From Prevotella sp. (GTDB taxonomy: Bacteria > Bacteroidota > Bacteroidia > Bacteroidales > Bacteroidaceae): a stretch of DNA of 64,000 bases. The notes beneath the pieces were generated by a model, which did no database searches, was not told the origin of the DNA, and saw only the letters and a list, made by a program, of their open reading frames with translations. The position numbers and the translations under genes were made by a program. The stretch is from contig JAFZRU010000047.1 of the NCBI GenBank assembly GCA_017619755.1, positions 1 to 64,000 on the forward strand, written 5' to 3'. This document shows, piece by piece, positions 7,458 through 60,348 of this stretch (the stretch's first letter is position 1; every line of letters starts with the position of its first letter).

Positions 7458-7478
7458 AGTTTCATTTTTTTGCTCCTC

Positions 7479-8330: not shown

Positions 8331-8575
8331 CTAAAACTTCTTGATTTCGACCATGAACAACGGACGGCGACGATAGGTCTCGCGGAAATATTCTGCCAGT
8401 TGATGGGCTGCCGGTTTTCCGTCTTTGAGTTTCTGCATGGCCTCCATGGCTTGACGTATGCGTGCATAATGTTTGGCGCCCATGTTGTGAGAGGCGGTGG
8501 ATAAATCTTTGCAAATCGGTCATCTCTTTTTCTCTGCCTATGATGTCATAAGTCAGGATGTCGAGGATTTTATAA
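8331..8575 (-). pseudogene. Frameshifted C-terminal remnant, SWIM zinc-finger-protein-like
   Basis: The minus strand encodes ILDILTYDIIGREKEMTD in one frame and then, after a shift near 8520, HNMGAKHYARIRQAMEAMQK followed by HQLAEYFRETYRRRPLFMVE in another, ending with TAG at 8333-8331. The ending with KYK.RR..L/M.E is like the tail of SWIM zinc-finger family proteins. That family call is from memory and weak. Together with 8000-8192 this marks 7.9-8.6 kb as a site of gene decay. Confidence 0.45.
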
Positions 8576-8600
8576 TTTTATTCGAAAAAACTCTAAATAA

Positions 8601-8632
8601 TTTGTTTTTTCACTCGTTTAATCGTATCTTTG
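8601..8632 (+). promoter_or_regulatory. Bacteroidota-type promoter
   Basis: TTTG (8601-8604), a 20-base spacer, then TATCTTTG (8625-8632). This is a textbook match to the -33/-7 arrangement and lies 40 bases before the ATG of the ATPase gene. Confidence 0.8.
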
Positions 8633-8672
8633 CATGTTACTAATGGTATGATACCAAAAGGAAGATGAGATT

Positions 8673-10185: not shown

Positions 10186-11943
10186 TTAATTCAATCTATA
10201 GGTTACTGGGAGGGTGTAATAGCATCTCACAGCCTTTCCGCCCTGTTTTCCTGGAGTCCACCGAGGCATTGCGTTGACCACGCGGATGGCCTCTTCATTC
10301 AAGGCTTTCACTCCTGCGTTGTGAACTTCGGCATCCTGGCGTTCTTTATCACCCATATAGGTTGTGACTTCTATCGGGGTTGTTTCGCCGATGCCTGGTG
10401 ATGTTGCCACCACCTCTGGATTTGTCAGGCTGCCGTCCTTTTCGACAATGAACCGAACCAACACCCGGCCTTGCACACCATTCTCTATGGCAGTTTTCGG
10501 ATATTTGATGTTACGGGCAATGAACTGCATCAGTTCTGCTTCGCCGCCAGGGAACTGTGGCATCTGTTCGCAGATAACAAAGACCTTGTCATCGCCCGGC
10601 TTCTTGGTCTGCACCATCACCGCCGTGTCTGCATCCTTGTGCAATGCTTCCTTGATGGTTTCTCTTGTTCCTATCACGTCAACAGAAGCGATGTCTTCAT
10701 GACGTAAGTTGCTGACCGCTTTCTCCGTGACTTCCTCGTCGTCCACGATATAAATCTTCTTTCCCCTCTCTGATTCCGTCACTATGTTGATCGTGTATTG
10801 AGCGGAACCAGTCTCAGTCAGGTGGATTTCTTTTAGCGCCCCTATTGGTATGTCGAACAGAGTAGCTTCGTCCACAGGTTTGCCGTTGACCAGCATCGTG
10901 GTCTTCGACACTTCGAGGGCGATGGCTCGGCCATTGGGTATTTTCTCTTCATGGCCGTTACGGAAGAAACTGACACCTGGTTGACAGCGTATCTGATAGC
11001 AATCGCCCTTGCCGTTTGTTTTCTCTTTGAACATACGAACAGCGTTGTTGTCTTCCGGTTTGTCTGTCTCATAGACGACAACGGTTTTTGCGGTCATGGC
11101 TAACGATGCCATTACGATGGGAACGACATACAGGGCTTTGAGCCATGTGCTTCGTTTTGATTTCGTTTTGAGTATCATGAGGATTCGTTTTTTAGTTTTA
11201 GGTGTTCGGATGCCATTGGCGAGGGCGCAGGCCTGAATGCCCGTCGCTTTTTGCATCAACAGGTGGATGTACTGGCTTTCGTTGAAGCCGTGGGAGAGGA
11301 CGGATGCGTCGGCCTCATACTCGTGGAGGATGCGCAGTTCCTGACGCATAAACCATGCCACGGGGTTGAACCACTGTAGGGCCGTGAGCAATTCTACTAC
11401 TACAACGTCGTAGCTATGACGATGGCGCACGTGCGCCTCTTCGTGTGCAAGGATTGACGGCGATGGCGATGGCCATTCTGTGGTGGGCAGCACAATGGTT
11501 TTCATCCAAGAGAACGGAGCAAATGGGGCATCTACCGCGCAAACCTTTGTGCCAGAGGGCAGCGTGTGCTTTTCGCCGCCACTGATGATTTTGTTCAGTT
11601 TCCTGTAACTTTGTGTCAAATGGAGCAGACGAATAAAAGTACCTGCAAGCAGCAGGGCCGCCAGTGCTGTTGTCCAATCAAAACGTTGCTTAAAGGCTTC
11701 CTCCAAGGGCAGGGGGGCTGCATTGTCGATGGTGTTGGATGCCATGGGCATGTTGACGACCACCGTGCGATGCAGAGTGACAATGCACAGGGGCAATACC
11801 GCAGAGAGGATGATGCAAGAGAGCAGTACCATGCGGTTCAATGAATGTGTCGTCTCTCGTGCAAGCAGAAGCTTGTAAAAGAGGTAAAACACGGCTGTCA
11901 GCGTCGCCACTTTCAGGTCGTAGTAAATGAGATTATCCAGCAT
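10186..11943 (-). CDS. BlaR1-like M56 metallopeptidase with C-terminal TonB domain
   Basis: A 585-residue inner-membrane protein. Membrane segments lie near 10-27, 40-58 and 92-108. A zinc-peptidase HEEAH motif is at 167-171, followed by HEYEAD near 207-212, the M56 arrangement. Another membrane segment (LYVVPIVMASLAMTA) lies near 270-285. The C-terminal part has the TonB signature PQFPGGEAELMQFIARNIKYP, then QGRVLVRFIVEKDGSL and RWTPGKQGGKAVRCYYTLPV. A charged insert (about 515-545) sits inside the TonB fold. BlaR1 proteins sense a signal and cleave the BlaI repressor. Bacteroidota versions usually carry TonB-type ends and mostly do not sense beta-lactams. It overlaps the blaI-like gene by 11 bases. 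Confidence 0.88.
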   Translation of the reverse strand: MLDNLIYYDLKVATLTAVFYLFYKLLLARETTHSLNRMVLLSCIILSAVLPLCIVTLHRTVVVNMPMASNTIDNAAPLPLEEAFKQRFDWTTALAALLLAGTFIRLLHLTQSYRKLNKIISGGEKHTLPSGTKVCAVDAPFAPFSWMKTIVLPTTEWPSPSPSILAHEEAHVRHRHSYDVVVVELLTALQWFNPVAWFMRQELRILHEYEADASVLSHGFNESQYIHLLMQKATGIQACALANGIRTPKTKKRILMILKTKSKRSTWLKALYVVPIVMASLAMTAKTVVVYETDKPEDNNAVRMFKEKTNGKGDCYQIRCQPGVSFFRNGHEEKIPNGRAIALEVSKTTMLVNGKPVDEATLFDIPIGALKEIHLTETGSAQYTINIVTESERGKKIYIVDDEEVTEKAVSNLRHEDIASVDVIGTRETIKEALHKDADTAVMVQTKKPGDDKVFVICEQMPQFPGGEAELMQFIARNIKYPKTAIENGVQGRVLVRFIVEKDGSLTNPEVVATSPGIGETTPIEVTTYMGDKERQDAEVHNAGVKALNEEAIRVVNAMPRWTPGKQGGKAVRCYYTLPVTYRLN

Positions 11944-14067: not shown

Positions 14068-14964
14068 TCATTTCCCCGAACGGTATTCGGCGGGAGTAAA
14101 GCCGGTAAGCCGGCGAAAATATTTCGTAAAAAACGATGATGAAGGGAAATGCAGTTCGTCGGCTATCTGTGCCACCGCCTTGTCGGAATGTTTGAGTATC
14201 ACCTTCGCCTCGGTCACGAGGGCACGGTCTATCCACTCTTTCGCCGTGGTGCCGCTCACCTCGCGCACCACATGTCCTAAATAGCGCTGCGTCAAGCACA
14301 TGCGGTCGGCATAATAGCCCAATTTATGCTCTTGCCGGACGTGGCTGTTCACCAATTGGATGAAACGGTTGAAGATGTCGGTGATGTGCGACGGACTCAC
14401 CTTCCGCTCTGTTTCCAAGCTAAACAAGTGATTGTAGTAGTGCATGAGTGTGGCCACCTGGTTGTCGAAAGCCTCACGGCAGAAAGGATTGACATGTGCC
14501 ATCAGCCAGAGGCTTTCGATGAATTGTGAGATGATGGCCTGCTGGCTTGGCTCCACCTGCATCTGGATGTCACGCACACTGCCATTGAAGAGCGCGGGTA
14601 CCCTGCCCCCCGTGAACGGCAGGTCGTTGAACAAAGCCACGCCCTTGATCTGCAAGTCGGTGGAGATGCTGATGGGCTCCACGATGCTTCCCGGGCCAAT
14701 GAAGGCTATCGTTCCCGCCGTGATATGCCGTTCGATAAGGTTGATACGCCCTCTTATCTCTCCCCGCACCACCATCCCCATGCGATAGTCGTTGATGAGG
14801 AGCGGCACTCTTCGGCTGAAAAAATAGTGGAACAGGCTTGCACCGGGGCCATGCAGCACCGCGAAGTCGGGGTTGAGGAAGAATTCCAATGCAGGGTCGT
14901 TATTGTGTTCCATGGCCTCACGTATCAGTGATAGGTCGAAGTGTTCGGGGCGTTGTCCTTTCAT
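14068..14964 (-). CDS. AraC-family transcriptional regulator
   Basis: A 298-residue regulator. The N-terminal half (about 20-160) is a cupin-like sensor (DYRMGMVVRGEIRGRINL, GTIAFIGPGSIVEPI). The C-terminal 100 residues hold the two AraC helix-turn-helix motifs (LGYYADRMCLTQRYLGHVVR and VAQIADELHFPSSSFFTKYF) and end RRLTGFTPAEYR. An in-frame ATG exists at 15039, but a promoter -7 box (TATCTTTG, complement of 15000-15007) lies inside that extension, while the ATG at 14964 follows AAGGAG at good distance, so I chose 14964. It is transcribed divergently from the efflux operon at 15140 and very probably controls it. Confidence 0.9.
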   Translation of the reverse strand: MKGQRPEHFDLSLIREAMEHNNDPALEFFLNPDFAVLHGPGASLFHYFFSRRVPLLINDYRMGMVVRGEIRGRINLIERHITAGTIAFIGPGSIVEPISISTDLQIKGVALFNDLPFTGGRVPALFNGSVRDIQMQVEPSQQAIISQFIESLWLMAHVNPFCREAFDNQVATLMHYYNHLFSLETERKVSPSHITDIFNRFIQLVNSHVRQEHKLGYYADRMCLTQRYLGHVVREVSGTTAKEWIDRALVTEAKVILKHSDKAVAQIADELHFPSSSFFTKYFRRLTGFTPAEYRSGK

Positions 14965-14999
14965 TTCCTTTTTCTCCTTTTTTTGGTGGTTTCCAAGCG

Positions 15000-15113
15000 C
15001 AAAGATAGTCAAAAAACTGCCATTTTGTACTTTAACCAACTAAAAATCGTACAAAAAGCACATTATTCGCTCCTTTTGGATAGGCTTTCGGTAAGATTTT
15101 AGATGTAATTTTG
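15000..15113. promoter_or_regulatory. Divergent promoters of the AraC gene and the efflux operon
   Basis: Leftward: TATCTTTG (complement of 15000-15007), 36 bases before the ATG at 14964. Rightward: TAATTTTG (15106-15113), 27 bases before the ATG at 15140, with TTTG at 15075-15078. AraC binding sites are expected in between, but I see no clear direct repeat. Confidence 0.65.
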
Positions 15114-15139
15114 CCGCCGAGAAACCAATCATCCAAAAT

Positions 15140-16402
15140 ATGAGACAACTATTGACCGCATTGGCCATGCTGCCGCTCAGCCTTTTCGCACAGACCATCG
15201 AAGAGTGCTGGCAAGCTGCCGAGCGCAATTACCCGCTCATCCGCCAGTACAACCTCATTGAGAAGACCACCGAACTGACGGTGGCCAATATCCAGAAGGG
15301 GTGGCTGCCGCAGGTCTCCGCCTCCGCACAGGCCACGTATCAGAACGATGTCGCCAGTTTCCCTGACCAGTTCAGGCAACTCTACCAGCAGATGGGCCTT
15401 GACATGAAAGGCTTGAAAAAGGACCAGTATCGTGTGGGAATCGACATCAACCAGACCGTGTATGATGGAGGCATGATCAGCAGTCAGAAGGAGATGGCTC
15501 GTGAGCAGGGGATGGTGCAGGCCGCACAGACAGAGGTGAACCTCTATCAAGTGCGCAAGCGCGTGAACGAGATGTATTTCTCTTTGTTGATGCTCGACGA
15601 TCAGATACAGTTGAACAACGACTTGCAGGAGTTGTTGGCCGCCAACGAGAAGAAACTGACATCGATGGTGAAGAACGGCATTGCAGCAGAGAGCGACCTG
15701 AAGAACGTCAAGGCGGAACGCTTGAACGTCGCCCAGCAGGGCACCAGTTTGCAGTCTCAAAAGCGTATGCTGCAGACTATGCTCTCCACCTTCTGCGGTA
15801 TGGAGGTGAAAAACGCCAGGAAGCCGGTTGTCACAGAGACAGGAGGTACGAACAACCGCCCGGAGATGCGTCTCTTCGACGCACAGCTGCGCTTGGCCGA
15901 TGCACAGAAGAAGGTCCTCAATGCCGCACTGATGCCGAAGTTCGGCGTGTTTGCACAGGGTTTCTATGGCTATCCTGGCTACAATATGTTTGAGGACATG
16001 GTGCGTCACGACTGGAGCCTCAACGGGATGGTCGGCGCCCGTCTGACGTGGAATATCGGCGCGCTCTACACTCGTAAGAACGACAAGGCGAAGATACAGT
16101 TGCAGCGTGAACTGACAGAGAACAATCGCGAGGTGTTCCTCTTCAACAACCGGTTGGAGCAGATGCAGGAAAATGAGGAGATGGAACGCTACAGGAAGAT
16201 GATGGCCGACGACGAGGAAATCATCTCGCTGCGCACCGCCGTGCGCAAGGCCGCCGAGTCGAAACTCTCACACGGCATCATCGACGTGAACGACTTGATA
16301 AGGGAAATCAACCAGGAGAATGTGGCCAAGGTGCAGCAGTCGATGCACGAGATACAGATGCTGAAACAGCTATATGAAAGCAAATACACCTCCAACCACT
16401 AA
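15140..16402 (+). CDS. TolC-family outer-membrane efflux protein
   Basis: A 420-residue protein with a signal peptide (cleaved after LSLFAQ) and the TolC repeat pattern: TIEECWQAAERNYPLIRQYN at the mature start, long alpha-helical hairpins rich in Q, E, K and N, and a second half repeating the design (RPEMRLFDAQLRLADAQKKV, then NGMVGARLTWNIG). It forms the outer-membrane channel for the pump encoded by the next four genes. The gap to the HlyD gene is 196 bases and holds an AT-rich repeat, which is unusual inside an operon. Confidence 0.92.
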   Translation: MRQLLTALAMLPLSLFAQTIEECWQAAERNYPLIRQYNLIEKTTELTVANIQKGWLPQVSASAQATYQNDVASFPDQFRQLYQQMGLDMKGLKKDQYRVGIDINQTVYDGGMISSQKEMAREQGMVQAAQTEVNLYQVRKRVNEMYFSLLMLDDQIQLNNDLQELLAANEKKLTSMVKNGIAAESDLKNVKAERLNVAQQGTSLQSQKRMLQTMLSTFCGMEVKNARKPVVTETGGTNNRPEMRLFDAQLRLADAQKKVLNAALMPKFGVFAQGFYGYPGYNMFEDMVRHDWSLNGMVGARLTWNIGALYTRKNDKAKIQLQRELTENNREVFLFNNRLEQMQENEEMERYRKMMADDEEIISLRTAVRKAAESKLSHGIIDVNDLIREINQENVAKVQQSMHEIQMLKQLYESKYTSNH

Positions 16403-49450: not shown

Positions 49451-49476
49451 AAAGGCCACCTATTGGTGGCTTTTTT
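49451..49476. terminator. Bidirectional terminator at the end of the kinase operon
   Basis: GCCACC-tatt-GGTGGC with A residues on one side and six T residues on the other. It lies at the stop codon of the minus-strand gene. Confidence 0.8.
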
Positions 49477-50033
49477 CATAGAAATTCGAAGCCCACTCCT
49501 TTTTTCTTTCCACAGACGTATGCGATGGGCGCACGACCTTCTTGGACGAGATGGTCAAGATAGAGAGGCTCTCCTTCTATCACTAAGCTACACTGAAATG
49601 TGTCACCAGGGTGGAGGCGGGTCTTCTCTGATGCCACCACGCGAAAGTCGAGACCTCCCATATATTCAATGTCGCAGATCCTCCCCGGCAACCAAATGAG
49701 ACGTACACGGTCACCGGGATGAAGTTCTTCTGTCACGCTGAGCCTGCGGCTATACACGGGGTCGCTCTGCTGCTCTTCTGGCAGCATGGCGTTTTGATGA
49801 TACTCATTCCAGTCGTGATATCCTAAGAATTTTGCCAGGATGTTCAACGTGCTGCTGCGTGGCTGCCCCCCATTGGAAAGGTAGCCCCAAAGACGCTTCA
49901 GTGTTGTGGCACTTAGCATAATATGAAGCCGTGCATAAATACGTTTGCTAAGATAGTCAAAGTCTCGGGGGGTCTGCATTTGGCAAGCCAACGCATTCTC
50001 TATGTCTCTCCGAAGTTTCTCTATTTCATTCAT
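49476..50033 (-). CDS. Hypothetical regulator-like protein, kinase partner
   Basis: A 185-residue cytosolic protein. The N-terminal 75 residues (IEKLRRDIENALACQMQTPR, FDYLSKRIYARLHIMLSATT, LKRLWGYLSNGG, LAKFLGYHDWNEY) are a module I have seen at the start of many Bacteroidota proteins and that looks like a helix-turn-helix. The C-terminal half has two beta-rich segments around LHPGDRVRLIWLPGRICDIE and HPGDTFQCSLVIEGEPLYLD that resemble each other. The start at 50033 overlaps the kinase stop as ATGA; an ATG 18 bases upstream is also possible. It is probably regulatory and translated with the kinase. Confidence 0.7.
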   Translation of the reverse strand: MNEIEKLRRDIENALACQMQTPRDFDYLSKRIYARLHIMLSATTLKRLWGYLSNGGQPRSSTLNILAKFLGYHDWNEYHQNAMLPEEQQSDPVYSRRLSVTEELHPGDRVRLIWLPGRICDIEYMGGLDFRVVASEKTRLHPGDTFQCSLVIEGEPLYLDHLVQEGRAPIAYVCGKKKGVGFEFL

Positions 50034-51364
50034 CTTATCACCGTTTTCCATTTTTTTGAAGCGAGATCTTTTTGATGCTGGTTCAAGGCAATCATTATTT
50101 CGACGATTTCATTTTCTTCAAACTTCCCCCTCAAGGTCTCTTGATATTTTATTTTCGCTTTATCCAAAACCGCATTGTTTTCGACAATCCCGATATACAT
50201 TTCAGGATTGATTTCTTTATAAATCATCGTGCCAAATTTCCACATCGCCTCATCCACAACTAAAAAGCCTTTTTGCTTGGCATCATCAATTCGCTGTTTT
50301 CGCTCGGATTCGACTTTTTCCTTTTCTTGCATCCGGATGTTTTCATTGGTCAAAATCGTCAAGCTGTCTGTTAGTTTCTTGACAGTTTTTCGCTGTGCAG
50401 ATTGCTCGTTTTTTGCCAACCGGGTTTCCTCCTCCAAAATGGTCATCTTTATCCGTTGTGCATCCATTTCCTTGTCCTGTGATTCCAACAACATTTGCTG
50501 GCTTTGGGTGATTTGGCGTTGGATATGCCATTGCCAAGCCATCCAACCTACAGTGGCCATCAACAGAAGGAAAGGAAGTGATATGGTGAAGAATAACATG
50601 CGCATCCGTCTCTTTTTGAACCTCTGGATGTCATCCCTTATTTCATCTACATTCTGGTATCGTTCCTCTGCCGGTCTAAGGCATCTTTTGATTACCTTCT
50701 GATAAATGCCTCCAAGATTCATCTGCCCAAGTATGATTCCCAAACTATATATATCGTTCCGAACATCGGCTTTCGAATATTGCTTCTGTTCCGGAGACAT
50801 GTACTTGGGTGTGCCAGCAGGCTGTTTGAACACACAATGGCTATCTGAGTCCGCAAGACCAAAATCCACCAGTTTGATATGACCACCATTGGCTGTCACC
50901 ATAATGTTCGAAGGTTTGAGGTCTCTGTGTATGATACCCTTGGCGTGGATATGTTTCACGGCCTCCAAAAGTTCTTCTGCCATTCTTCTACGTTGGTGAA
51001 GCAAAGTGTTTCTTTTGGCCAATACTGTTGCTAAGGTTTGACCCTCCACATACTCCATCACGATGCATTCTCCCAAACCATCAACGCTCTCCAGTCCGAC
51101 AACCGTCACGATGGCAGGATGTTGCAACTGGGTCATCAACTCAAATTCTTTTCGTAGTCGTTGTCGGAAGTTTTCTTGTTGGGCCAATTCTGGACGCAAT
51201 GATTTTAGCAACCACCATCGTCCATAGCGTTTAGCTTTTGCCACTACATTTATTTCCGATTCATGGATGATTTCCATATCGGTGAAAGTGCGGCTAATCC
51301 CTTCAAAAGAATCAATGATATAGCCAGAGTCTGAAGAGTCGAAAAGGTCGTTCATAATGTTCAA
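50030..51364 (-). CDS. Membrane Ser/Thr protein kinase
   Basis: A 444-residue protein. The kinase domain covers about 28-250: the ATP-site lysine is in RWWLLKSL (K54), the catalytic loop is HRDLKPSN (146-153), the metal loop VDFGLAD (DFG at 167-169), and the activation segment ends GTPKYMSPEQ (184-193). The glycine-rich loop is not recognisable. One membrane segment (about 257-279, LFFTISLPFLLLMATVGWMA) follows, then a coiled coil (about 283-365, rich in Q, E and K) and a C-terminal domain of about 80 residues outside the membrane. This is the Hanks-type receptor plan without PASTA domains. It is divergent from a cluster of exported proteins, which it probably serves. Confidence 0.88.
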   Translation of the reverse strand: MNIMNDLFDSSDSGYIIDSFEGISRTFTDMEIIHESEINVVAKAKRYGRWWLLKSLRPELAQQENFRQRLRKEFELMTQLQHPAIVTVVGLESVDGLGECIVMEYVEGQTLATVLAKRNTLLHQRRRMAEELLEAVKHIHAKGIIHRDLKPSNIMVTANGGHIKLVDFGLADSDSHCVFKQPAGTPKYMSPEQKQYSKADVRNDIYSLGIILGQMNLGGIYQKVIKRCLRPAEERYQNVDEIRDDIQRFKKRRMRMLFFTISLPFLLLMATVGWMAWQWHIQRQITQSQQMLLESQDKEMDAQRIKMTILEEETRLAKNEQSAQRKTVKKLTDSLTILTNENIRMQEKEKVESERKQRIDDAKQKGFLVVDEAMWKFGTMIYKEINPEMYIGIVENNAVLDKAKIKYQETLRGKFEENEIVEIMIALNQHQKDLASKKWKTVIR

Positions 51365-51391
51365 GTTAATCTTACTCTACTTTGGTATTCA

Positions 51392-51399
51392 CAAATATA
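51392..51399 (-). promoter_or_regulatory. -7 box of the kinase operon
   Basis: TATATTTG (complement of 51392-51399), 27 bases before the kinase ATG. Confidence 0.6.
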
Positions 51400-51554
51400 A
51401 TAATGTGGCTTTTATTCGATTTTTCCGTGCGGAAAGGTTTCCTATCCTCTTTTCTTACTGCGAAGATAGTACATTTATGTTAAACCGCCAATTAATTTTG
51501 CCATAAAAAATGAAAAGAACCAATTTGGACTAATCTACATCTGCATAAAATAGT

Positions 51555-51622
51555 TATTTTTGCCGCAATGTAAAAAAAACAGCTCACAATGAAACAACTT
51601 TCAAAAACTTTTGCTATCTTTG
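51555..51622 (+). promoter_or_regulatory. Two possible promoters of the exported-protein cluster
   Basis: TATTTTTG (51555-51562) with TTTG at 51524-51527, and TATCTTTG (51615-51622). Both point right. The first would place the inverted repeat at 51580 inside the transcript. The leader to the first gene is then about 370 or 310 bases. Confidence 0.55.
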
Positions 51623-51943
51623 CAAATGCGGAAGTGAGAAATCCTTCCCTACGGCCATCTGCGTATGCGGGTGGCAGACATCGAGGAGAGCAAACAGGCT
51701 TTTACCCGTCTGAGAATCTGGAAAATTCAAGTGAAAGGGGAAAAAGACTGAAAGCTGTTCCTCCTGTAGAATGTATCTACCGTGTTCCCAAGAATGCGGC
51801 TCATATACATACCTACAGGTGTGAGCTGATTTTCATTCTTTCTTTCACGGGTATTCCAGAACCTTCAGACGAGGAATGTCATGAAGGCCCACACCTCTTG
51901 TGTTGTGAAAATAATCTTAAATGTTAATGCAACAACCAGCTTA
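51570..51943 (+). ncRNA. Long folded-looking leader, possible cis-regulatory or independent RNA
   Basis: CAGCTCAC (51580-51587) pairs perfectly with GTGAGCTG (51821-51828), closing a 250-base region. Inside are GGAAG/CTTCC near 51630-51648, a 9-base-pair stem GCCATCTGC/GCGGGTGGC (51654-51675) with wobbles, an AGAC/GTCT pair, and a CTGTAG/CTAC hairpin. A 112-codon frame (51589-51927) crosses it, but its ATG lies before the second promoter and the product has no exported or known features. I favour RNA. Confidence 0.4.
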
Positions 51944-52462
51944 ATGAAGAAAAAAATGATGAAAATAAACGCATTCATATTGGTGCTGGCTACCTTGATG
52001 GTCTCACCACATGTCTCTTTTGCCCAACCTAATGCATCATTACAAGATATAAGGGTGGAATGTCTTGGCGTGGAACATGATGGTTCTCAGACACTTCTTG
52101 TACAGGGAATGGGGCATAACAAGGCCGATGCCAAGGAACAAGCCAAAAAAAACGCTGTCATGGCGGTGCTCTTCATTGGAGTGAGAAGCGGACTTGGCGG
52201 ATGTGAAATTAGACCCTTGATAACAGAAGTTAATGCCAGAGAAAAATATGCACGTTATTTCGACATCTTCTTTATGGACAAAGGAGAATATGTCAACTAT
52301 GTGTCAATGGAAGACACACGACCACACAGCCAAACAAAGAAAAAAGGAAAGGAACAAAGAAAAATCACTATTACCGTACGCGTTCTGAGAAGCCAACTTG
52401 CTGAAAGATTGCAAAACGATGGCATCCTAAACGAGGAGAAATCCAACATTGAATATTATTAA
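51944..52462 (+). CDS. Exported protein, LPP20/FlgP-like, paralogue of 54098 gene
   Basis: A 172-residue protein. The start at 51944 gives a signal peptide ending SFAQP. The block LLVQGMGHNKADAKEQAKKN AVMAVLF has the spacing (V.G.G.....DA...AK..A) of LPP20/FlgP-type envelope proteins. YARYFDIFFMDKGEYVNYVS follows, and a conserved ITVRVLRSQLAERLQNDGIL ends it. The protein at 54098 shares this order of blocks. First gene of a nine-gene same-strand cluster; 17 bases before the next gene. Confidence 0.7.
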   Translation: MKKKMMKINAFILVLATLMVSPHVSFAQPNASLQDIRVECLGVEHDGSQTLLVQGMGHNKADAKEQAKKNAVMAVLFIGVRSGLGGCEIRPLITEVNAREKYARYFDIFFMDKGEYVNYVSMEDTRPHSQTKKKGKEQRKITITVRVLRSQLAERLQNDGILNEEKSNIEYY

Positions 52463-52479
52463 CCAAACATATCAACATT

Positions 52480-54081
52480 ATGAAAAAATCGTTAGTTTTA
52501 TTGGCTATACTCTCTTTTTTTGGAGCAGCCAAAGCACAGGATGAATCCAACATGCTCACTACAAGGGCAACATCACTTACAAGAGAATACCTGCGGCCAT
52601 CACTCACCAGAATTTATCTCGTTGATGGCTCATCGAATGCAATGGCGGGGGTAAAAGCCATGGAAGATGTGGCACAGAAGAATATGAAGTTTGACATCAA
52701 TCTCATTGAAAGCCGTATCTTTCAAATGAATGCCATACCCGAAAACGCCAACAAGGCACAACGTGACTTGCATGTGAAAGCAACTGCGGAAAAAATCATA
52801 AGAGAGAAGAAAATTGGCAATCAAGTGATGAAGGTATGGTTTCCCGAATTTATCAATGGTAGTTATTCTGTGGAAAAACTACTGCAACGAGGGCAATATG
52901 CAGCCACCGACAATGACGTGCTAAAGCAAAACGCCAGTGCCAGACAAAGTTTGATGTACGAACTGGGAGAGAAACTAATAGACCGCTCATACGTCATTTT
53001 TTATTTTGTGCAGGACAAAACACGAAATAACGACCCTCAAGTTTCTTACATTCCCTATGTTTACAAACTCGATTTCAACGAACTGGTTCGGACCAATTTC
53101 TATAACAACTATTTCAATGTGAAGGATGGTATCGATCAGTGTGAATTCCCTCTCAAATTCATCACCAACGCACATGATGGAGAAATCAAAACCATCAGTA
53201 ATTTTAGTGAGGATGATGACGAGGAAATCTTCACCAGAATTCGCAAAGTAGCAGATTTTCAGGCCAAGGTGCCAATCATCGCAACCCACCCTGTCAGGGC
53301 AAAGATTGGCATAAAAGAAGGTGTGAAGAAAGGTAAACGATACGTGGCAATGGAGAACAAACAGATGGAGAATGGCAGCATCATCTCAAGGAGAATAGCC
53401 ACGCTTAGAGCCGGGTCAGTGGCAGACAACGACAAGAGAGCCACTGGCGACAGTCAAGACCTCTCCAGCTTCTTTTACATCAAGGGAAGCCCCGTGCATG
53501 AAGGAATGACATTGGTGGAGAACCCAGACTTCGGTACGTCCATTGAGGCACAATACAATCTCTCTGAAATCAGCGCAACTTTGGCACTACGTATTTCCGG
53601 CACCAAAGGCTCGTTTATTTATCTCAAAGCGGGTATGGTGAACAATGAAGATGGCAAGATGATGAAAGTGCATGCCGTAACAAAAGGGGACAAAAACAAT
53701 TACAAGGAGGAGAATGTCAACGTACTGAAAGCAGGTCTCGGACTTGGTTGTGAGTTGAATTTCGGAAGAATGTTCTGTTTCACACCATGCATCGGTGGTG
53801 GCATTCTATGGCCTTTAGGAGCCCAAAAACTCAACATCGAAGGAGGTTCTGTTACTGTAGAAGACAAAACATCAGTGGAATCCTATTATGTGGAGGGGGC
53901 TGTGAGACTTGGCTACTATATGACTCGTAACATCCAAATCTTTGGCGAAATCGGCTATAACCTCTATCTACTTGGTGATGAATTCAAGTATATGCGGGAT
54001 TGGTATTCAAAAGAAGAGAATATTGAGGCAAAAGACCCTATGGCCATACGCCTTGGAGGAGGTATCAAAATCTGTTTCTAA
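52480..54081 (+). CDS. Exported protein with C-terminal outer-membrane barrel
   Basis: A 533-residue protein with a signal peptide (MKKSLVLLAILSFFGAAKAQ). Residues about 25-330 are an unrecognised soluble domain: LRPSLTRIYLVDGSSNAMAG, MYELGEKLIDRSYVIFYFVQ, YIPYVYKLDFNELVRTNFYN. From about 355 the pattern turns to amphipathic strands, with GLGLGCELNFGRMFCFTPCI, YYVEGAVRLGYYMTRNIQIF and the ending AIRLGGGIKICF, a terminal phenylalanine as in outer-membrane barrels. It may anchor a complex formed with the products around it. It starts 17 bases after the first gene and ends 16 before the third. Confidence 0.75.
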   Translation: MKKSLVLLAILSFFGAAKAQDESNMLTTRATSLTREYLRPSLTRIYLVDGSSNAMAGVKAMEDVAQKNMKFDINLIESRIFQMNAIPENANKAQRDLHVKATAEKIIREKKIGNQVMKVWFPEFINGSYSVEKLLQRGQYAATDNDVLKQNASARQSLMYELGEKLIDRSYVIFYFVQDKTRNNDPQVSYIPYVYKLDFNELVRTNFYNNYFNVKDGIDQCEFPLKFITNAHDGEIKTISNFSEDDDEEIFTRIRKVADFQAKVPIIATHPVRAKIGIKEGVKKGKRYVAMENKQMENGSIISRRIATLRAGSVADNDKRATGDSQDLSSFFYIKGSPVHEGMTLVENPDFGTSIEAQYNLSEISATLALRISGTKGSFIYLKAGMVNNEDGKMMKVHAVTKGDKNNYKEENVNVLKAGLGLGCELNFGRMFCFTPCIGGGILWPLGAQKLNIEGGSVTVEDKTSVESYYVEGAVRLGYYMTRNIQIFGEIGYNLYLLGDEFKYMRDWYSKEENIEAKDPMAIRLGGGIKICF

Positions 54082-54097
54082 TAAAATGTGGAAAGTT

Positions 54098-54589
54098 ATG
54101 AAAAAAATAGTGACATTATGCATCCTTTTCACCATGATTGCCTGCGTTGCTGCCATAGCCGGAGGGAAAAAGACAAAAGAATATAGATATGAAATAGTTC
54201 CTATGGGCGTAGGAAGCCAAGGAACCACACTGATAAAAGTATATTCGTATGCTAAAAGCGAAAAAGCAGCAGTGGAACTTGCAAAAGAGAATGCCGTTCA
54301 TGGTGTGATGTTCAAAGGAGTGGTAGGGGGGAATGGCTCCTCCGCTCAGCCACCTCTTGTAAAACCTGAAGAGAAAGAAATGCATCAAGACTTCTTCTAC
54401 GACTTCTTCGAGAATGGTACATATTTACAATATGTCAGTTTGTCTTCTGATGGAATAGTGTCCTCAAACGACAGACTAAAAGTGGGAAACCTATATAAAA
54501 TAGGTATCATTGTGTCTGTCAACAAAGCCGAATTAAGAAAATATCTTGAGAACGAAGGGGTCATCAAGAAATTTGGTTCCATATTTTAA
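54098..54589 (+). CDS. Exported protein, LPP20/FlgP-like, paralogue of 51944 gene
   Basis: A 163-residue protein; the start at 54098 gives a signal (MKKIVTLCILFTMIACVAAI) that includes a cysteine but not a clean lipobox. The order of blocks equals the protein at 51944: LIKVYSYAKSEKAAVELAKE then NAVHGVMFKGV, a DFFYDFFENGTYLQYVSLSS block, and KIGIIVSVNKAELRKYLENE near the end. The two flank the barrel-protein gene. Identity by eye is modest, so the duplication is old. Confidence 0.7.
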   Translation: MKKIVTLCILFTMIACVAAIAGGKKTKEYRYEIVPMGVGSQGTTLIKVYSYAKSEKAAVELAKENAVHGVMFKGVVGGNGSSAQPPLVKPEEKEMHQDFFYDFFENGTYLQYVSLSSDGIVSSNDRLKVGNLYKIGIIVSVNKAELRKYLENEGVIKKFGSIF

Positions 54590-54673
54590 TTCAGCGATGA
54601 AGGAAAACCCAAGCTTGATTGAACTATATTGAGAGAAAACTATCTATAAAACGACTTTTAAAAACGAAACAGA

Positions 54674-55543
54674 ATGAAATATTTTCATAACCTTTTCTTG
54701 GTTATCGGCCTGCTTATGGTTTCCATACAGGCCTTTAGCCAAGCAAAAAAACCACAACTCGTAGTTATTCCATCAGATGCACTGATGAACCAAATGGGGC
54801 TTCTTCAGTTGGCTGATGATATGGGAGAGGTCAATTATGTGCAAAACTATAAGCAAGCATTCCTTGATACGGATTTGAAAGCATGTATTTCGAAAATCTC
54901 CGAGATGTTCAACGACCGTGGATTTCCTCTCACCATGCTCGAGGCTCAACTCCGTAACGCACAGGGACGCAGCATACCCATTACCATCGATTTGAGGTTG
55001 GAACTCAACTACAAGATAAACAAGCAAGGACCACGTGACATCCTTTATTTCGAACTATCCGCCATTGATGCCTATAGTTCAAAACAGGTGGGAGCCACCA
55101 GTGGGCAAAGCAAGCCTGCCATAGGTGAAACTAAAGTCAACCTGCTACAAGAAGCCGTTATCGACAAAATCGACAAGTTCGCTGCAGACCTCGACTCCTA
55201 TTTTGAGTCATTGGCACAGTCGGGGAGAGAATCCAGATTAACAATTGAATCGGAGAACCCATTACCTGATGATCTTATCGACGTGGTGGAGGAATGGCTC
55301 TCTGCAAATTGTGTCAACGGCGTATTCTCCACAGACAACATCGATGACAACATCATTCAAGTGTCACAAGCGATGATGCCACTCTATGGCCCCAATGGCA
55401 AATCCCTGGACGCTCGAAACTTCTACCGTCCTTTAAGGAACGTACTAACCAACCAAGGTCTCAACGTCAAACAAGTGGCAAGCAAGAATGCTTCTTTCTC
55501 AGTAGGGGGTACGCTTGGTGACGGACATTTCGTTATCGAATAA
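54674..55543 (+). CDS. DUF6175-family exported protein
   Basis: A 289-residue protein with a signal peptide ending QAFSQ. It follows the DUF6175 pattern as I remember it: KPQLVVIPSDALM near the mature start, NYKQAFLDTDLKACISKISE, RGFPLTMLEAQL, GPRDILYFELSAIDAYSSKQ, LLQEAVIDKIDKFAADLDSY, SGRESRLTIESENP, LYGPNGKSLDARNFYRPLRN. The middle part (beta strand, DAYS.K, then a long helix) is similar in plan to CsgG/TolB-N/LpoB-type domains. The family has no known function. It precedes a distant relative by 11 bases. Confidence 0.75.
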   Translation: MKYFHNLFLVIGLLMVSIQAFSQAKKPQLVVIPSDALMNQMGLLQLADDMGEVNYVQNYKQAFLDTDLKACISKISEMFNDRGFPLTMLEAQLRNAQGRSIPITIDLRLELNYKINKQGPRDILYFELSAIDAYSSKQVGATSGQSKPAIGETKVNLLQEAVIDKIDKFAADLDSYFESLAQSGRESRLTIESENPLPDDLIDVVEEWLSANCVNGVFSTDNIDDNIIQVSQAMMPLYGPNGKSLDARNFYRPLRNVLTNQGLNVKQVASKNASFSVGGTLGDGHFVIE

Positions 55544-55554
55544 TGTGAACAAAT

Positions 55555-56499
55555 ATGAAAAGATTAAACAAAACTGTGCTATTGTGTCTCATGATGTGGT
55601 GGACTATGTTTGCAAGTGGGCAAAGTCTTAACGTTGCGCCAGCGCACCTGATGTGCGACTATGATGTTCCTGAGAAACTTGACACACAAGTGAGGACAAA
55701 ATTGCAGCGAGCACTCTCAAAATATGACATCAGTTCGGAAACGGGAGTGTCTCGATTCGCCATGGTGCCGTCGGTGGCAATCATCGACGAGCGTACAACA
55801 GCTACAGTTCCCGTATTTTGCGATATGGATTTTGATTTTGTCATATCTTTACAAGATGCATATAGTGGAAAAGTCTTCGCTTCTTTCACAAAGCAAATCA
55901 CCAGCCGAGGCACCAACAAAGCAAATTCCATTGCAAAGGGTATTTCTACCCTCAGACTCGAAACACCCGAATTCACAAGATTTTGTAAAGAAGCAAAAGA
56001 TAAGGTTTTCGACTATTATGAGAGCCAAATAGAATCCATTATTGCCAAGGCAAAACAAGCTGCTGGACAGCGGAATTTCGAGGAGGCCATTTTCATTTTG
56101 GCTGAAGTACCTGAAGACAGCCCCTCCTTTAATTCTATAATTCTCCCAGTAATGACGCAATATTATATGCAGGAAAGAGATCTTTTTGGTGAGAAAGTTC
56201 TTGCTGAAGCTCGTGCAGCATGGGCGGCAGCTCCCAATGAGCAGGGTGCAGCCCAAGTAGCAGAAATACTCGCCAATATGCCCCCCTCATGTGCCTCATC
56301 GGCATCTGCAAGACAATTCGTCAGCCAAATAACAAACAAAGTAGAGGCAATAGAAAATTGGGAGCGCAGATACCTTGATAGGGAACAAGCAATGAGACAT
56401 GATGAGCGAAAAGCTACGATTGAGGCTGCTCGCGCCGTTGCTGTTGCTTATGCTAATAGCCAACCACGATATGTGACAAAGGTGTATCTATGGAGATAA
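55555..56499 (+). CDS. Exported protein, distantly DUF6175-like N-terminus, helical repeats
   Basis: A 314-residue protein with a signal peptide ending FASGQ. The N-terminal domain (about 25-160) reads FDFVISLQDAYSGKVFASFT followed by a helix, the same plan as the ISAIDAYS block of the preceding protein. From about 160 two similar helical units follow (RNFEEAIFILAEVPEDSPSF and QGAAQVAEILANMPPSCASS), TPR-like in spacing. The end is a charged helix with alanines (EAARAVAVAYANSQ). Probably periplasmic; it may assemble with the DUF6175 protein. Confidence 0.65.
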   Translation: MKRLNKTVLLCLMMWWTMFASGQSLNVAPAHLMCDYDVPEKLDTQVRTKLQRALSKYDISSETGVSRFAMVPSVAIIDERTTATVPVFCDMDFDFVISLQDAYSGKVFASFTKQITSRGTNKANSIAKGISTLRLETPEFTRFCKEAKDKVFDYYESQIESIIAKAKQAAGQRNFEEAIFILAEVPEDSPSFNSIILPVMTQYYMQERDLFGEKVLAEARAAWAAAPNEQGAAQVAEILANMPPSCASSASARQFVSQITNKVEAIENWERRYLDREQAMRHDERKATIEAARAVAVAYANSQPRYVTKVYLWR

Positions 56500-56598
56500 T
56501 TTTCCAATTTATGGTAACATTGCACAAATTCCGTCAAACACGTCTGCAAAATAAGCTTTTGGCAAAAGATGAAATAATAAACCTATAAAAACATAATA

Positions 56599-57372
56599 AT
56601 GAAAAAAGAAATCTTTTTACTATGTGTCTTGCTGGGTGTTTTATGCTCATGCCACAAAACCACGTATATCATACCTTCAAAAGACACATTGGCGTTTCCC
56701 ATCCAAGGAGGGGAAATTCTTGATACCATCCATACTGACGGCGATTGGGAGGTGACCCTCAGCCCAGATTGGGTGCAGATAGATATACAAGACAGCATTT
56801 TGAAATGCGTCGTGACCGAAAACAAGGTGGGAAAGAAGCGCGATGGAATAATCACCCTGAGAGGGGATGATACTCAGCAATCCATCACCATCACCCAAGC
56901 GTATATCTGTACACACATCACTCCAGAAAACACCTCATTGACCTTTGAAAAAGAGGGTGGCACACAAACCATAGGCATCGACACTGATGGTAGTGACATC
57001 AAGGTGGATGTGAGCGGAAACTTCACCACAAAATATGACAATGGCAAACTGGTGGTGGAGGCACCTGCTAACAACACGGTTTCCTCAACAGGCAAAATCG
57101 TACTGACTTGCGACTCACAAGTTGCCGAAATCAATGTCGCCTTGAAAGGGTTGATTTGTCCCAAATGCGGAGGAAAGGGCCGGTTGATATGCACCAAATG
57201 TGGTGGTTCAGGATATGTCTGGATGGAAAACGATGACATGACCTATGGGTGTACCAAATGTGGAGGTGGTGGCTGTGGCTATCTCGCAGAATATTATAAT
57301 GATAATGCGGACGATTTGAGAAAAGGTTCTGGCCAGATGGTATGCCCCGTATGCAATGGACAAGGAAATTGA
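56599..57372 (+). CDS. Lipoprotein with BACON domains and DnaJ-type cysteine-rich domain
   Basis: A 257-residue protein. The signal MKKEIFLLCVLLGVLCSCHK carries a lipobox cysteine. Two BACON-type domains follow: IPSKDTLAFPIQGGEILDTI to QQSITITQA (about 25-100) and ITPENTSLTFEKEGGTQTIG to VALKG (about 103-190). The end (about 192-257) holds four CxxCxGxG units: CPKCGGKG, CTKCGGSG, CTKCGGGG and CPVCNGQG, the zinc-binding pattern of the DnaJ cysteine-rich domain, here without a J domain. BACON domains are adhesion or linker domains of surface proteins. Joining them to a DnaJ-type zinc domain outside the cytoplasm is unusual. Confidence 0.85.
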   Translation: MKKEIFLLCVLLGVLCSCHKTTYIIPSKDTLAFPIQGGEILDTIHTDGDWEVTLSPDWVQIDIQDSILKCVVTENKVGKKRDGIITLRGDDTQQSITITQAYICTHITPENTSLTFEKEGGTQTIGIDTDGSDIKVDVSGNFTTKYDNGKLVVEAPANNTVSSTGKIVLTCDSQVAEINVALKGLICPKCGGKGRLICTKCGGSGYVWMENDDMTYGCTKCGGGGCGYLAEYYNDNADDLRKGSGQMVCPVCNGQGN

Positions 57373-57424
57373 TATGCCTAAAAAATCGTAAAGATAATAT
57401 TGAATACCTAACAAAAAAAGAAAA

Positions 57425-58654
57425 ATGAAAAGCTACCCAAAATTATTAGCTGCGGTTTTTTGCCTTATAGGTATAACCGCATACACCTCTGATGACCCGA
57501 AAGCAGAGGTAACGGCACTCGCCAACCGCTTCGCTTCTTATGTGGCACAAAACCAATTGGACTCCATCCGTGCTATTTATCCCGATGCAGCGGAGTGCGA
57601 TTCTTTTGCTATCAGCTACATCACTGATAGTTTGAAAGTGGAGGCCGACTCACAACCTGAAACATTCAAAGTGAGTGTGGGCAATAGTGCCGATTTCGTG
57701 ATGACAAGAGACAAAGACGGAAAATGGAGCGTTACAAGTTCGCACGGACTGGTGGCGTTCAATGCCGACGACCTTGCTTTTGCCAAGAGCGTAGGACAAT
57801 ACAAAGAAGGATTGACCGATGTCCAACTGGCACGACGGATGAGCGTGAAAGAGTTCAAGGAGAGTCTGGTGTTCAATTTTGTCAAGGACCTGCAGTCGAA
57901 AGTGAAGACGGGACGAATCAACAGAGATATCCATTTCCCGGAATTTATGGCTGACGAAGGGATAGGTGCTGTCACCGTGACCAATGCAACGGGGAAGACC
58001 ATCGATGGTAAAGACTATGTGATTGACATCTTTGCCGATGGGCAACACGGCTCTGGGTCGTATCAGGAAAAAGGGAAGAACATTCCTGCCAATGGCTCCA
58101 CCGATATTCGTTTCACCTATGCCGGCAATAGTTACGTCACCGGAGCCCTGCTGACTTTCGTCATCCCCGACCAGCAAATATTTGTCAAGTATTTCGACGC
58201 TAAGGGAAATGAGTTTGATGAGTATCTCAAGGCTAACAATATTGACCTCGATGTCGTGACAAAAGAACAGAAAACAGATGGCGTTGAAACAGCCTCCACC
58301 ACGGAAATCCCTGCCGAGGAGGATGCTGCCGCAGAGCAATTCATACGCAAGTTCTATATGACCTACGTGCTGTCAGATACCGAGTTCGCCCCTGTGGCAA
58401 AGAAATACTGTTCACCGAAACTCTTGAAGAAACTGAAGGCCGACTATGACTTCGATGATGGTGGCTATGCCATTTGGGATTTCAGAAGCGGTCAGCAAGA
58501 TGGAACTGGGGCATCGGAAGTGAAGAGTGTAAAACGGGTGCATGACGGACTCGTTTATGAGATCGAAATTCTCGATATGGGGCATCCACACACCGCATTG
58601 GTGTCACTGGTGACGTCTTCGGATGGTGCCTTCCTCTTCGATGACGTGAAATGA
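57425..58654 (+). CDS. Exported hypothetical protein
   Basis: A 409-residue protein with a hydrophobic N-terminus (LLAAVFCLIGITAYTS) that is a signal peptide with possible lipid-like context but no cysteine at the right place. The N-terminal part (EVTALANRFASYVAQNQLDS) resembles a helical NTF2-like start. The middle (IDGKDYVIDIFADGQ) is beta-rich. The C-terminal 120 residues begin AAAEQFIRKFYMTYVLSDTE and continue KYCSPKLLKKLKADYDFDDG, like DUF3828-type domains of Bacteroidota. No enzyme motif. Follows the BACON gene by 52 bases. Confidence 0.6.
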   Translation: MKSYPKLLAAVFCLIGITAYTSDDPKAEVTALANRFASYVAQNQLDSIRAIYPDAAECDSFAISYITDSLKVEADSQPETFKVSVGNSADFVMTRDKDGKWSVTSSHGLVAFNADDLAFAKSVGQYKEGLTDVQLARRMSVKEFKESLVFNFVKDLQSKVKTGRINRDIHFPEFMADEGIGAVTVTNATGKTIDGKDYVIDIFADGQHGSGSYQEKGKNIPANGSTDIRFTYAGNSYVTGALLTFVIPDQQIFVKYFDAKGNEFDEYLKANNIDLDVVTKEQKTDGVETASTTEIPAEEDAAAEQFIRKFYMTYVLSDTEFAPVAKKYCSPKLLKKLKADYDFDDGGYAIWDFRSGQQDGTGASEVKSVKRVHDGLVYEIEILDMGHPHTALVSLVTSSDGAFLFDDVK

Positions 58655-58685
58655 AATGTATTTGATGATATTAAAAAAAAGAATT

Positions 58686-59903
58686 ATGAAAAAGAAATGT
58701 TCATTGTTGTTTTTCATATTGGGCATTATTGTCAATATGAATGCACAGAAAAATCCAGTTCATCTATCTGTTTATTATACTAATAAGGCAACGACTATTA
58801 AATATACGGAAACCGATTATAATCAACGTGTAATTAAAGGTTATGTTCTTGCTGAAGTTGTAGATGGTGGTGGTTGTGAAACAACTGTTACGGAAAATGG
58901 AAGTAAATATTTGATTGAAAGAGTTTTTGGTTCTGAACCTGAACTATTTCAAGTATCAAAAGCCGATGTTGATATTAAATTATTTGAAATATCCCCTTTT
59001 CCTGTGTCAATGATAGGAAATGGCTTGAATTTCGCAACAAGTGATGGGCTGAAAGCACGAGTGTTTAAATCCAATTCCAATGGTCATAAATATATGGCTT
59101 CTTCGTATTCAAAAGAATTAGGCACAAGCCTAAGTTCTTGTTATGTGTTATGTATGGAATGCATCAATGAATATGATGGGAAAAAAAATTATGTAGAGAA
59201 TCCTGTCGCGGTAAAGAATGGCAACATTTTGAATGATGGTATTTTCCCTATCGTCTGGGCGTCTGGATTAGGATCCGAACGGTCGTCTTATGATAAAACA
59301 GGAAAGTTACTCTATAACCAAAGATGTGATTTTGATGGACAAAATTTAATTGTTGCCTACATCGGCTCTGAGAAAGCCTTGTACTTTGATGGAAAGTTTT
59401 ACTATCTTGTTGATTCTTCCACTCAATCGACTGCAGGGGCAAGAAACGAGTCTTCAACTGCTCAAACACTTGATGACCTGCCCATCTCTGACATTTTGAA
59501 ACTGATAGAATATGAGGGTGATTATGGGGATATTCTCAAAAACAATGGATACAAGTATGTGGGTGAATATTCCACCGCAGCATGTCGTTGTGCTATCTCT
59601 ACTTGGTGTAGGAATTGCACAGCTTCAAAATCAGGAGATGTCCTGCAATTCCAGAAAGGCACATCCTGTATCGTCTGTCATTGTATGGCGATGGGTGATT
59701 ACCCTACACTCACCATTGAGGTGTTCAACATCAATGCAAGGGATATCATCGTCAACGAATTGAGAAAAATTGGATTCGTTGAAAATGGAGGAGATAGCAA
59801 TCAAAGATATTTTAGCCGTGAAAATGTCGATTATGGAACTGATGCTACCTTGGTGAAGACCAAAAAGGGGTGGAAGTTCAGTCTCTACCCTGTTGCATCT
59901 TAA
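58686..59903 (+). CDS. Exported hypothetical protein, cysteine-rich middle, AT-rich gene
   Basis: A 405-residue protein; the start at 58686 gives a signal peptide ending NMNAQ. No family recognised. A cluster of cysteines near 305-345 (CRCAISTWCRNC, then CIVCHCMAMGDYP) could bind metal or form disulphides. The end is beta-strand like (LTIEVFNINARDIIVNELRK). The gene is visibly AT-richer than its neighbours in its first two thirds, suggesting separate origin. Ten bases separate it from the SH3b gene. Confidence 0.6.
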   Translation: MKKKCSLLFFILGIIVNMNAQKNPVHLSVYYTNKATTIKYTETDYNQRVIKGYVLAEVVDGGGCETTVTENGSKYLIERVFGSEPELFQVSKADVDIKLFEISPFPVSMIGNGLNFATSDGLKARVFKSNSNGHKYMASSYSKELGTSLSSCYVLCMECINEYDGKKNYVENPVAVKNGNILNDGIFPIVWASGLGSERSSYDKTGKLLYNQRCDFDGQNLIVAYIGSEKALYFDGKFYYLVDSSTQSTAGARNESSTAQTLDDLPISDILKLIEYEGDYGDILKNNGYKYVGEYSTAACRCAISTWCRNCTASKSGDVLQFQKGTSCIVCHCMAMGDYPTLTIEVFNINARDIIVNELRKIGFVENGGDSNQRYFSRENVDYGTDATLVKTKKGWKFSLYPVAS

Positions 59904-59913
59904 ACACAATAAT

Positions 59914-60348
59914 ATGATGAAAAAACTATTTTTGATGTCAGCAGCCTTGTTGTGCTGTTTGGCTATATCGGCTCAGAGTATGAAAATGGTGGTTGACACA
60001 GGAGGAAATGTAGTTGGGCGTTATGTTCGAACCAATGCCAACACCTACACGGTGGAAGTGCAGGATACTTACGACGTGCCAAAGGCTGGTAAAAAGGTGG
60101 TCACCTTCAGCGCAGCCAACGGTCAAGGCATCTGCTACCGAAATCAGGACCGCAAGGGCAACATCAACGTGCGGAAAGGTCCATCACTTAATTATGCCGT
60201 AGTGGCCAAGATTCCCGATTTTGACGATTTGCCGGAATGCTATCCTTGCCTGGGTGAAACCAATGGATGGTACAAGATTAGCATCAATGGCAAGGTTGGG
60301 TATGTCCGCCAAGACATGGCCAATTGGGATGGCATGTGCACTTTCTGA
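59914..60348 (+). CDS. Exported SH3b-domain protein
   Basis: A 144-residue protein with a signal peptide ending AISAQS. After a short beta segment (VVGRYVRTNANTYTVEVQD) comes a bacterial SH3 domain: NINVRKGPSLNYAVVAKIPD, then GWYKISINGKVGYVRQDM. SH3b domains bind peptidoglycan or proteins at the wall. Last gene of the cluster. Confidence 0.8.
   Translation: MMKKLFLMSAALLCCLAISAQSMKMVVDTGGNVVGRYVRTNANTYTVEVQDTYDVPKAGKKVVTFSAANGQGICYRNQDRKGNINVRKGPSLNYAVVAKIPDFDDLPECYPCLGETNGWYKISINGKVGYVRQDMANWDGMCTF

Follow-up and report, generated by a model that had tools for sequence, protein, structure and literature searches.

A conserved structured RNA leader with attenuator-like anatomy between a Ser/Thr kinase pair and a DUF6175 operon in Prevotella

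Eleven genes and a conserved structured RNA lie between positions 49476 and 60348 of a 64,000-nucleotide stretch of Prevotella sp. DNA (contig JAFZRU010000047.1, positions 1 to 64,000; hereafter the window), which forms part of a host genome of 3.7 Mb in 67 contigs with a completeness of 86%. Two genes on the minus strand, g1 (49476..50051) and g2 (50030..51364), overlap by 22 nucleotides (nt) and encode a kinase partner of 191 amino acids (aa) and a membrane Hanks-type Ser/Thr kinase, respectively. Nine genes on the plus strand, g3 to g11, span 51938 to 60348; g3 to g7 carry five protein families that recur together around DUF6175, referred to here as the core, and g8 to g11 are accessory. 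All eleven genes were found where a preliminary description of this DNA had placed them. That description passed over the content of the intergenic gap between the kinase and the cluster, namely a structured RNA of about 334 nt (51572..51905, plus strand) that is supported by conservation, covariation and a fold z of -6.0 (-3.7 for the copy in another locus, L167). In our reading, the cluster is probably an exported-protein operon headed by a kinase-controlled attenuator leader, with the DUF6175 operon being one among such operons.

The leader follows a candidate promoter -7 box, TATTTTTG (P1, 51555..51562), and a similar TAnTTTTGC was observed upstream of several aligned copies; the Bacteroidetes -7 consensus is TAnnTTTG. 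Pairing analysis identified an A-box, CAGCTCACA (51580..51588), as a 5' strand complementary to a downstream strand termed M. The A-box lies about 73 nt upstream of a long imperfect hairpin (51697..51889), which is supported by a covariance model and by alignment, and a small hairpin (51654..51675) is predicted in the interval between them. The M strand, GGTGTGAGCTG (51818..51828), belongs to the long hairpin's right arm and is able to pair with the A-box, with the left arm or with a 3' partner, the C-box, GGCCCACACC (51886..51895), which was also identified by pairing analysis. The C-box is followed by a terminator-like U-rich run (51896-51903) that is weak in the window copy. All these features are on the plus strand. 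A 112-aa open reading frame (ORF) at 51589-51927 overlaps the RNA element and has no other support, and the start of g3 was set to 51938 because an alternative start at 51881 falls within the element.

Covariation was detected in the element. Of 58 pairs predicted from an alignment of eleven copies, 28 had changed on both sides. In a larger alignment (A5) of 83 copies, 82 of them distinct, 91.1% of the cells pair, as compared with 66.9% in shuffled and 38-46% in slid controls; both-side change was found in at least one copy for 57 of 59 pairs, and the covariation score amounts to 0.588, as against 0.190 after shuffling and 0.066-0.082 after sliding. There are 623 G-U pairs for 79 A-C mismatches, and 528 for 73 in the 72 copies outside the source loci of R1, a covariance model of the hairpin part only that was built from aligned copies. 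One further alignment (A3) excludes L178, which is cut by the contig end, and L174.

Evidence for competing pairings of the M strand was obtained from an alignment of 53 copies (A10), from which 30 of the 83 had been dropped as weaker or distant or, in one case, as too near the contig end. The A-box and M are paired in 93.8% of its cells, with 25 double-change cells as compared with 5.0 +/- 1.9 in shuffled and 0-7 in slid controls. For M and the C-box 98.5% are paired, with 4 double-change cells versus 0.6 in shuffled controls. The C-box was recognized by pattern in 70 of the 83 copies, and the 8 nt that follow it contain on average 5.2 T, where 2.3 are expected from the flank; at least five T are present in 53 of these 70. 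Folds forced to contain the A-box helix lie a median of 2.5 kcal/mol above the minimum (46 copies), and those forced to contain the C-box helix lie 7.8 kcal/mol above it (53 copies). The element thus combines a position just upstream of a same-strand gene with mutually exclusive conserved helices, one of which is terminator-like, and as judged from sequence and predicted pairing the leader is laid out like an attenuator whose folds compete.

The leader is widespread. A DNA comparison of 20 regions around g1 and g2 relatives revealed a conserved stretch near one or both genes in 10 of them, and in addition in L066, a DUF6175 locus in which a g1-type domain is fused to a leucine-rich repeat protein. 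A regular expression for the element recovered few copies. R1 matches were identified in 77 of the 150 genus genomes searched (E<=1e-3), in 63 of 201 genomes of the family (E<=1e-10), where they cover 19 of 30 genera, and in 34 of 247 genomes of the order (E<=1e-6). Its position is constant: among 61 copies from the genus that were fetched with the model, 50 have the start of a same-strand ORF at most 120 nt downstream (median of these, 44 nt), whereas only 3 do so in the mirror direction. These 61 copies derive from 60 regions taken by rank, new loci only, with one copy for each fetched locus plus a further copy in L264; the additional copies in L234 and L248 were left uncounted. The same position was observed for 32 of 40 copies from other genera and for 14 of 20 copies from other families. 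The former set comprises 40 of 100 rows taken by rank, from which the own genus, known loci and most rows near a contig start were excluded; its loci are new, yet some of the genomes (for example, G044 and G128) had yielded other loci. The order-level set comprises 20 of 51 rows. The 80 named Bacteroidota core loci yielded 11 R1 matches (E 4e-13 to 0.08, five of them at 0.002 to 0.08), and each is followed, at a distance of -35 to 112 nt, by an ORF on its strand that leads into the core operon. In a single-contig genome, L176 has two near-alike leaders (10510-10815 and 14897-15202) that are 4.4 kb apart and have a different gene after each.

No Rfam 15 family matched over the element in the window at E<=1, where a single weak Phe_leader match was located elsewhere. 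The same result was obtained at the gathering cut-off for L046, L049, L056, L059, L063, L166, L176, 13 further loci and 11 genus loci, and at E<=0.5 for seven out-of-family loci. On viral contigs, neither exact peptide patterns for g1 nor one exact pattern for the element gave a match.

The long imperfect inverted repeat beside variable payload genes, together with a model score of about 20 bits on the wrong strand too, could be taken to indicate that the element is a DNA hairpin, involved in recombination or forming a mobile repeat, rather than an RNA. We consider this very improbable, given the narrow spacing and the fixed strand relative to the next ORF, the large excess of G-U over A-C, the 3' U-run, the alternative pairing of M and the presence of a single full-strength copy in the genome of the window. 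A mobile repeat was rejected because a DNA search of this genome returned only that one copy, although R1 adds three weaker relatives there and one in the window. The latter (7505-7733, minus strand; 31 bits, E 3e-7 in the window) ends 48 nt before a same-strand 159-aa ORF that starts at 7457.

The genes on the other side of the leader encode a kinase and its partner. The translation of g2, which has a Pkinase domain (3e-38) and one hydrophobic membrane stretch, contains the catalytic motifs HRDLKPSN and DFG, and the protein was assigned to the Hanks type. It does not appear to be a PASTA kinase of the PknB/Stk1 type: the PknB_PASTA model covers only residues 42-215 with 161 of the 450 bits needed, and PASTA domains were absent in the Pfam scan. 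The partner g1 consists of a helical N-terminal region, presumably helix-turn-helix-like by its motif, and a C-terminal beta region. No Pfam family was above the cut-off for g1 (best value 0.0017, in 1 of 34 family members), and its single-sequence structure model (predicted local distance difference test, pLDDT, 44.7) was too poor for use. Sequence searches retrieved relatives of g2 and g1 with up to 60% and 63% identity, respectively. In none of the 20 regions around such relatives was a DUF6175-core gene found among the genes displayed beside the pair. By this comparison of gene neighborhoods, the kinase and partner are a separate, portable pair and not part of the core unit. Their neighbors in the 20 regions varied and included, by eye, TerB-like, BspA-like and radical-SAM-like genes. 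A second kinase/partner pair exists on another contig (43) of the genome of the window (L185, 3628-11184), with a leader at 7412-7627. The operon there codes for a membrane protein of 196 aa and for a protein of 1029 aa that contains a GGTGGK motif and, by eye, appears tubulin-like; in L234, L238 and L244, leaders are followed by payloads of comparable size (about 200 plus 1030 aa).

This pair is associated with one form of the leader. In 25 of the 61 copies, g1 or g2 is no more than 5 kb away (26 when domain profiles were used); with about one g1 match per genome of some 3 Mb, the chance expectation was estimated to be far below one linked copy. The association was analyzed in 58 of the 61 copies, three having no usable 5' region or being outside A5, and a copy was classed as A-box-positive when an uninterrupted run of at least 8 pairs with M was present at the expected position. 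For the 44 copies with flanks of at least 3.5 kb on both sides, 22 A-box-positive copies are linked to the pair and 6 are not, whereas none of the 16 A-box-negative copies is linked (p=3.6e-7). Without the flank limit, the corresponding numbers are 23 and 10 for A-box-positive and 1 and 24 for A-box-negative copies. At the same threshold, other genera gave 9 linked and 8 unlinked A-box-positive copies against 1 and 16 A-box-negative copies (p=0.007).

A different account of these data is that the leader is a genuine cis-regulator that responds to a ligand, to translation, to Rho or to NusG-type factors and that the kinase pair is only a frequent neighbor acting at the promoter as a DNA-binding system. 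It would accommodate the fact that no more than 25 of the 61 copies are accompanied by the pair at a distance of 5 kb or less, the helical N-terminal region of g1 (in a low-confidence model) and the closeness of the A-box to a candidate promoter. It would also fit the weaker relatives of the leader (22-58 bits) that are ahead of DUF6175-type operons in L049, L052, L056, L057, L059, L063 and L071, where the kinase was not found. However, it is with A-box-bearing leaders that the pair is associated, and covariation with M places the A-box within the RNA structure; we regard this account as possible but rather unlikely.

The operon downstream of the window leader contains a conserved unit. Its core consists of g3 (51938..52462; lppA family, a small exported protein), the N-terminal part of g4 (52480..54081; c2 family, followed by a barrel-like C-terminal extension), g5 (54086..54589; lppB family, a paralogue of g3), g6 (54674..55543; DUF6175, 2.8e-51) and g7 (55555..56499, adjoining DUF6175), all on the plus strand. 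All five families were present in 60 of the 80 named loci, a count that is affected by the early end of many contigs; the individual families occur in 78 (DUF6175), 76 (lppA), 75 (g7), 73 (c2) and 73 (lppB) loci. The window also has all five, in different order. These 80 loci were the top-ranking ones among 559 for a single DUF6175 subfamily, and the divergent type found in the window is therefore under-sampled.

The structure model of DUF6175 (pLDDT 88) has an N-domain of the CsgG/PelC/FlgT-type fold, as revealed by structure comparison, in agreement with the CsgG/LpoB-like plan that had been suggested earlier. The core payload (g3, g4, g5, DUF6175 and g7) probably builds an outer-membrane assembly of this fold class. 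In L050, L073, L075, L076, L077 and L080, DUF6175 proteins are longer (414-427 aa) and begin with an lpp-like extension, a hint that the two proteins may touch. The name DUF6175 was absent from the literature searched, which was limited to open-licence papers. Searches of solved structures by sequence gave nothing better than E=0.045 for the g1, g3/g5, g4 and g7 profiles. Two further observations concern the surroundings of DUF6175 operons: an abiF RNA (Rfam RF03085) is within a few kb of them at L049 12630-12666 and L063 7506-7542, and in L096 (14930-16600) a 556-aa exported protein with a long CxxC run and a BACON-like part, which matches the g8 profile weakly (3e-5), is encoded 3' of the operon.

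The accessory genes, likewise on the plus strand, encode a BACON/zinc-ribbon lipoprotein (g8, 56599..57372; BACON 2.1e-6) with a homologue in the DUF6175 locus L066, an exported protein (g9, 57425..58654) with two homologues in L066, one of which carries YARHG, an exported protein without Pfam family (g10, 58686..59903) with a relative in L250 and an exported SH3_3 protein (g11, 59917..60348; 8.6e-9). A Pfam-type domain scan confirmed the Pkinase, DUF6175, BACON and SH3_3 assignments, and other labels of the preliminary description had to be modified. Of g3 and g5, described as LPP20/FlgP-like paralogues, the mutual relatedness holds (28% identity), but the label does not, as Pfam LPP20 matched none of 28 family members at E<=0.1; it does match a different neighbor family (3e-7). 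The designation of g4 as a barrel protein is backed by nothing beyond an OMP_b-brl match under the cut-off (E 0.019), and a view of g4 as a fusion of the c2 family with a separate small barrel, c7, was rejected because its C-terminal part has no c7 profile match at E<=10. Taken for a relative of DUF6175, g7 has no DUF6175 match at E<=1 and forms a conserved family of its own. Of the eight gaps between the nine genes (17, 4, 84, 11, 99, 52, 31 and 13 nt), most of which had been put at 10-50 bases, five are within or below that range and three are larger; these lengths depend on the start codons chosen in this analysis.

The same description had proposed that the kinase, its partner and all nine proteins form one regulated envelope assembly or export machine, with conserved co-occurrence of the kinase and at least four of the nine genes as support. 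The common intergenic gap, the tight same-strand genes and the CsgG/FlgT-like fold are in line with a dedicated machine, and its envelope-type operon was borne out for the five core families. Co-occurrence to that extent was detected in one other locus, L247, which contains g1, g2 and then g4-type, g5-type, DUF6175 and g7 genes; fewer are present in L250 and L046 (g1, g2, DUF6175 and g7, with an additional g10-type gene in L250) and in L240 (g1, g2 and a g4-type gene). Against the membership of the kinase and of g8 to g11, the kinase occurs in 1 of the 80 named loci, about 8 kb away, and in 1 of 40 genus and family DUF6175 loci (L046), the orthologues of the pair adjoin other operons, and relatives of g8 to g11 were seldom observed beside the core in these loci. 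We therefore regard a single machine as improbable. The window, L046, L240, L247 and L250 unite pair, leader and core genes, and in the four latter loci the leader is located between the pair and the core genes. The link of the kinase with the operon thus looks regulatory, by way of the leader, rather than that of a machine component. Between the kinase and the leader of the DUF6175 operon in L046, two genes (8454-9024) look by eye like a nucleotidyltransferase/HEPN pair.

A mechanism can be proposed for the kinase-controlled attenuator. Pairing of M with the C-box, followed by the U-run, would form a terminator (off), and pairing of M with the A-box or with the left arm would prevent it (on). 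The trans-acting input would come from g2, the membrane kinase, together with g1, as suggested by their genomic association: the kinase would sense the envelope or extracellular state and phosphorylate g1 or another factor, and the leader would be shifted between its states via the A-box. The product of the operon would be an envelope structure. The more far-reaching form of this proposal, in which a eukaryotic-type membrane kinase switches a three-state leader across exported-protein operons, with phosphorylation of the partner altering A-box pairing and so deciding terminator formation, is tentative, and we hold it with less than even confidence.

Several points weigh against kinase-controlled attenuation. 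The 83-copy alignment was fitted to the model, which favors pairs and G-U and flatters the figures derived from it. Covariation between M and the C-box is modest, with one slid control reaching 10 double-change cells, the C-box fold lies above the energy minimum, and the U-run is short in several copies, including that of the window. The Fisher p-values overstate independence because the A-box-positive copies are interrelated, and the threshold of 8 pairs was chosen after inspection of the first set. Furthermore, 36 of the 61 copies have no kinase or partner within 5 kb, some for lack of flank, so that the RNA can probably work without them. Finally, GCTCACA boxes in the DNA could be the binding target of g1.

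This work adds a large structured RNA family without Rfam match to the Bacteroidota, which are dominant in gut and rumen, defines a conserved envelope operon of five families around DUF6175, and provides the membrane kinases of Bacteroidota with a concrete and testable output. The data suggest that, in Bacteroidota of gut and rumen, kinases are used to control such gene clusters by an RNA switch. If true, this would represent a new signaling route, from Ser/Thr phosphorylation to RNA attenuation, in the form of a cassette portable across Bacteroidota.

As to the core, DUF6175 shares only about 6-10% identity with the CsgG, PelC, FlgT and TolB N-domain fold class, Foldseek returned no match at E<=0.001, and DUF6175 residues of about 185-289 are hardly covered; we know of no counterparts of g4 and g7 in these systems. 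As to the RNA, DUF805 (RF03081) and DUF805b (RF02914) are structured RNAs with a cis-regulatory role as well. In L284 (6680-6745) and L293 (5470-5538), the element is followed after 38-42 nt by DUF805. DUF805b shares the strand of the element and comes 0.9-2.3 kb after it in five of the 11 genus loci (L219, L220, L222, L226 and L230) and likewise in L166. Leader and DUF805/DUF805b RNAs may belong to one regulon; neither DUF805 nor DUF805b was found in 13 other element-bearing loci. They differ from the leader in that they have 68 and 35 model positions, respectively, and in that their matches fall elsewhere and leave the element uncovered.

UpxY acts in the NusG-type antitermination of long operons. 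The same is reported for LoaP (PMC12691694), and both resemble the case proposed here in that long operons are controlled by transcription read-through; they differ in that the RNA structure of the leader described here is conserved. For Bacteroidetes, palindromic RNAs that measure up to 132 bp have been described (PMC8040213), and a fragment of the leader may be among the candidates of that survey. Passages on the structured-RNA surveys (PMC8040213, PMC2864571) contained nothing equivalent to the leader, nor did the portion of the open-licence literature searched on kinase-linked attenuation in Bacteroides, on leader RNAs and long hairpins and on DUF805. Attenuator leaders are known as such, and that literature yielded no precedent for a kinase-type partner. 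The closest parallel is ANTAR/EutV, where, as reported (PMC3369936, PMC3369931), an attenuator has competing terminator and antiterminator helices and a signaling protein pair acts on the leader. The leader described here shares with it mutually exclusive helices, one of them terminator-like, although here a signaling pair is encoded nearby, and differs from it in the Hanks-type membrane Ser/Thr kinase with an unclassified partner, the hairpin of about 190 nt, the third competing pairing and its occurrence in Bacteroidota.

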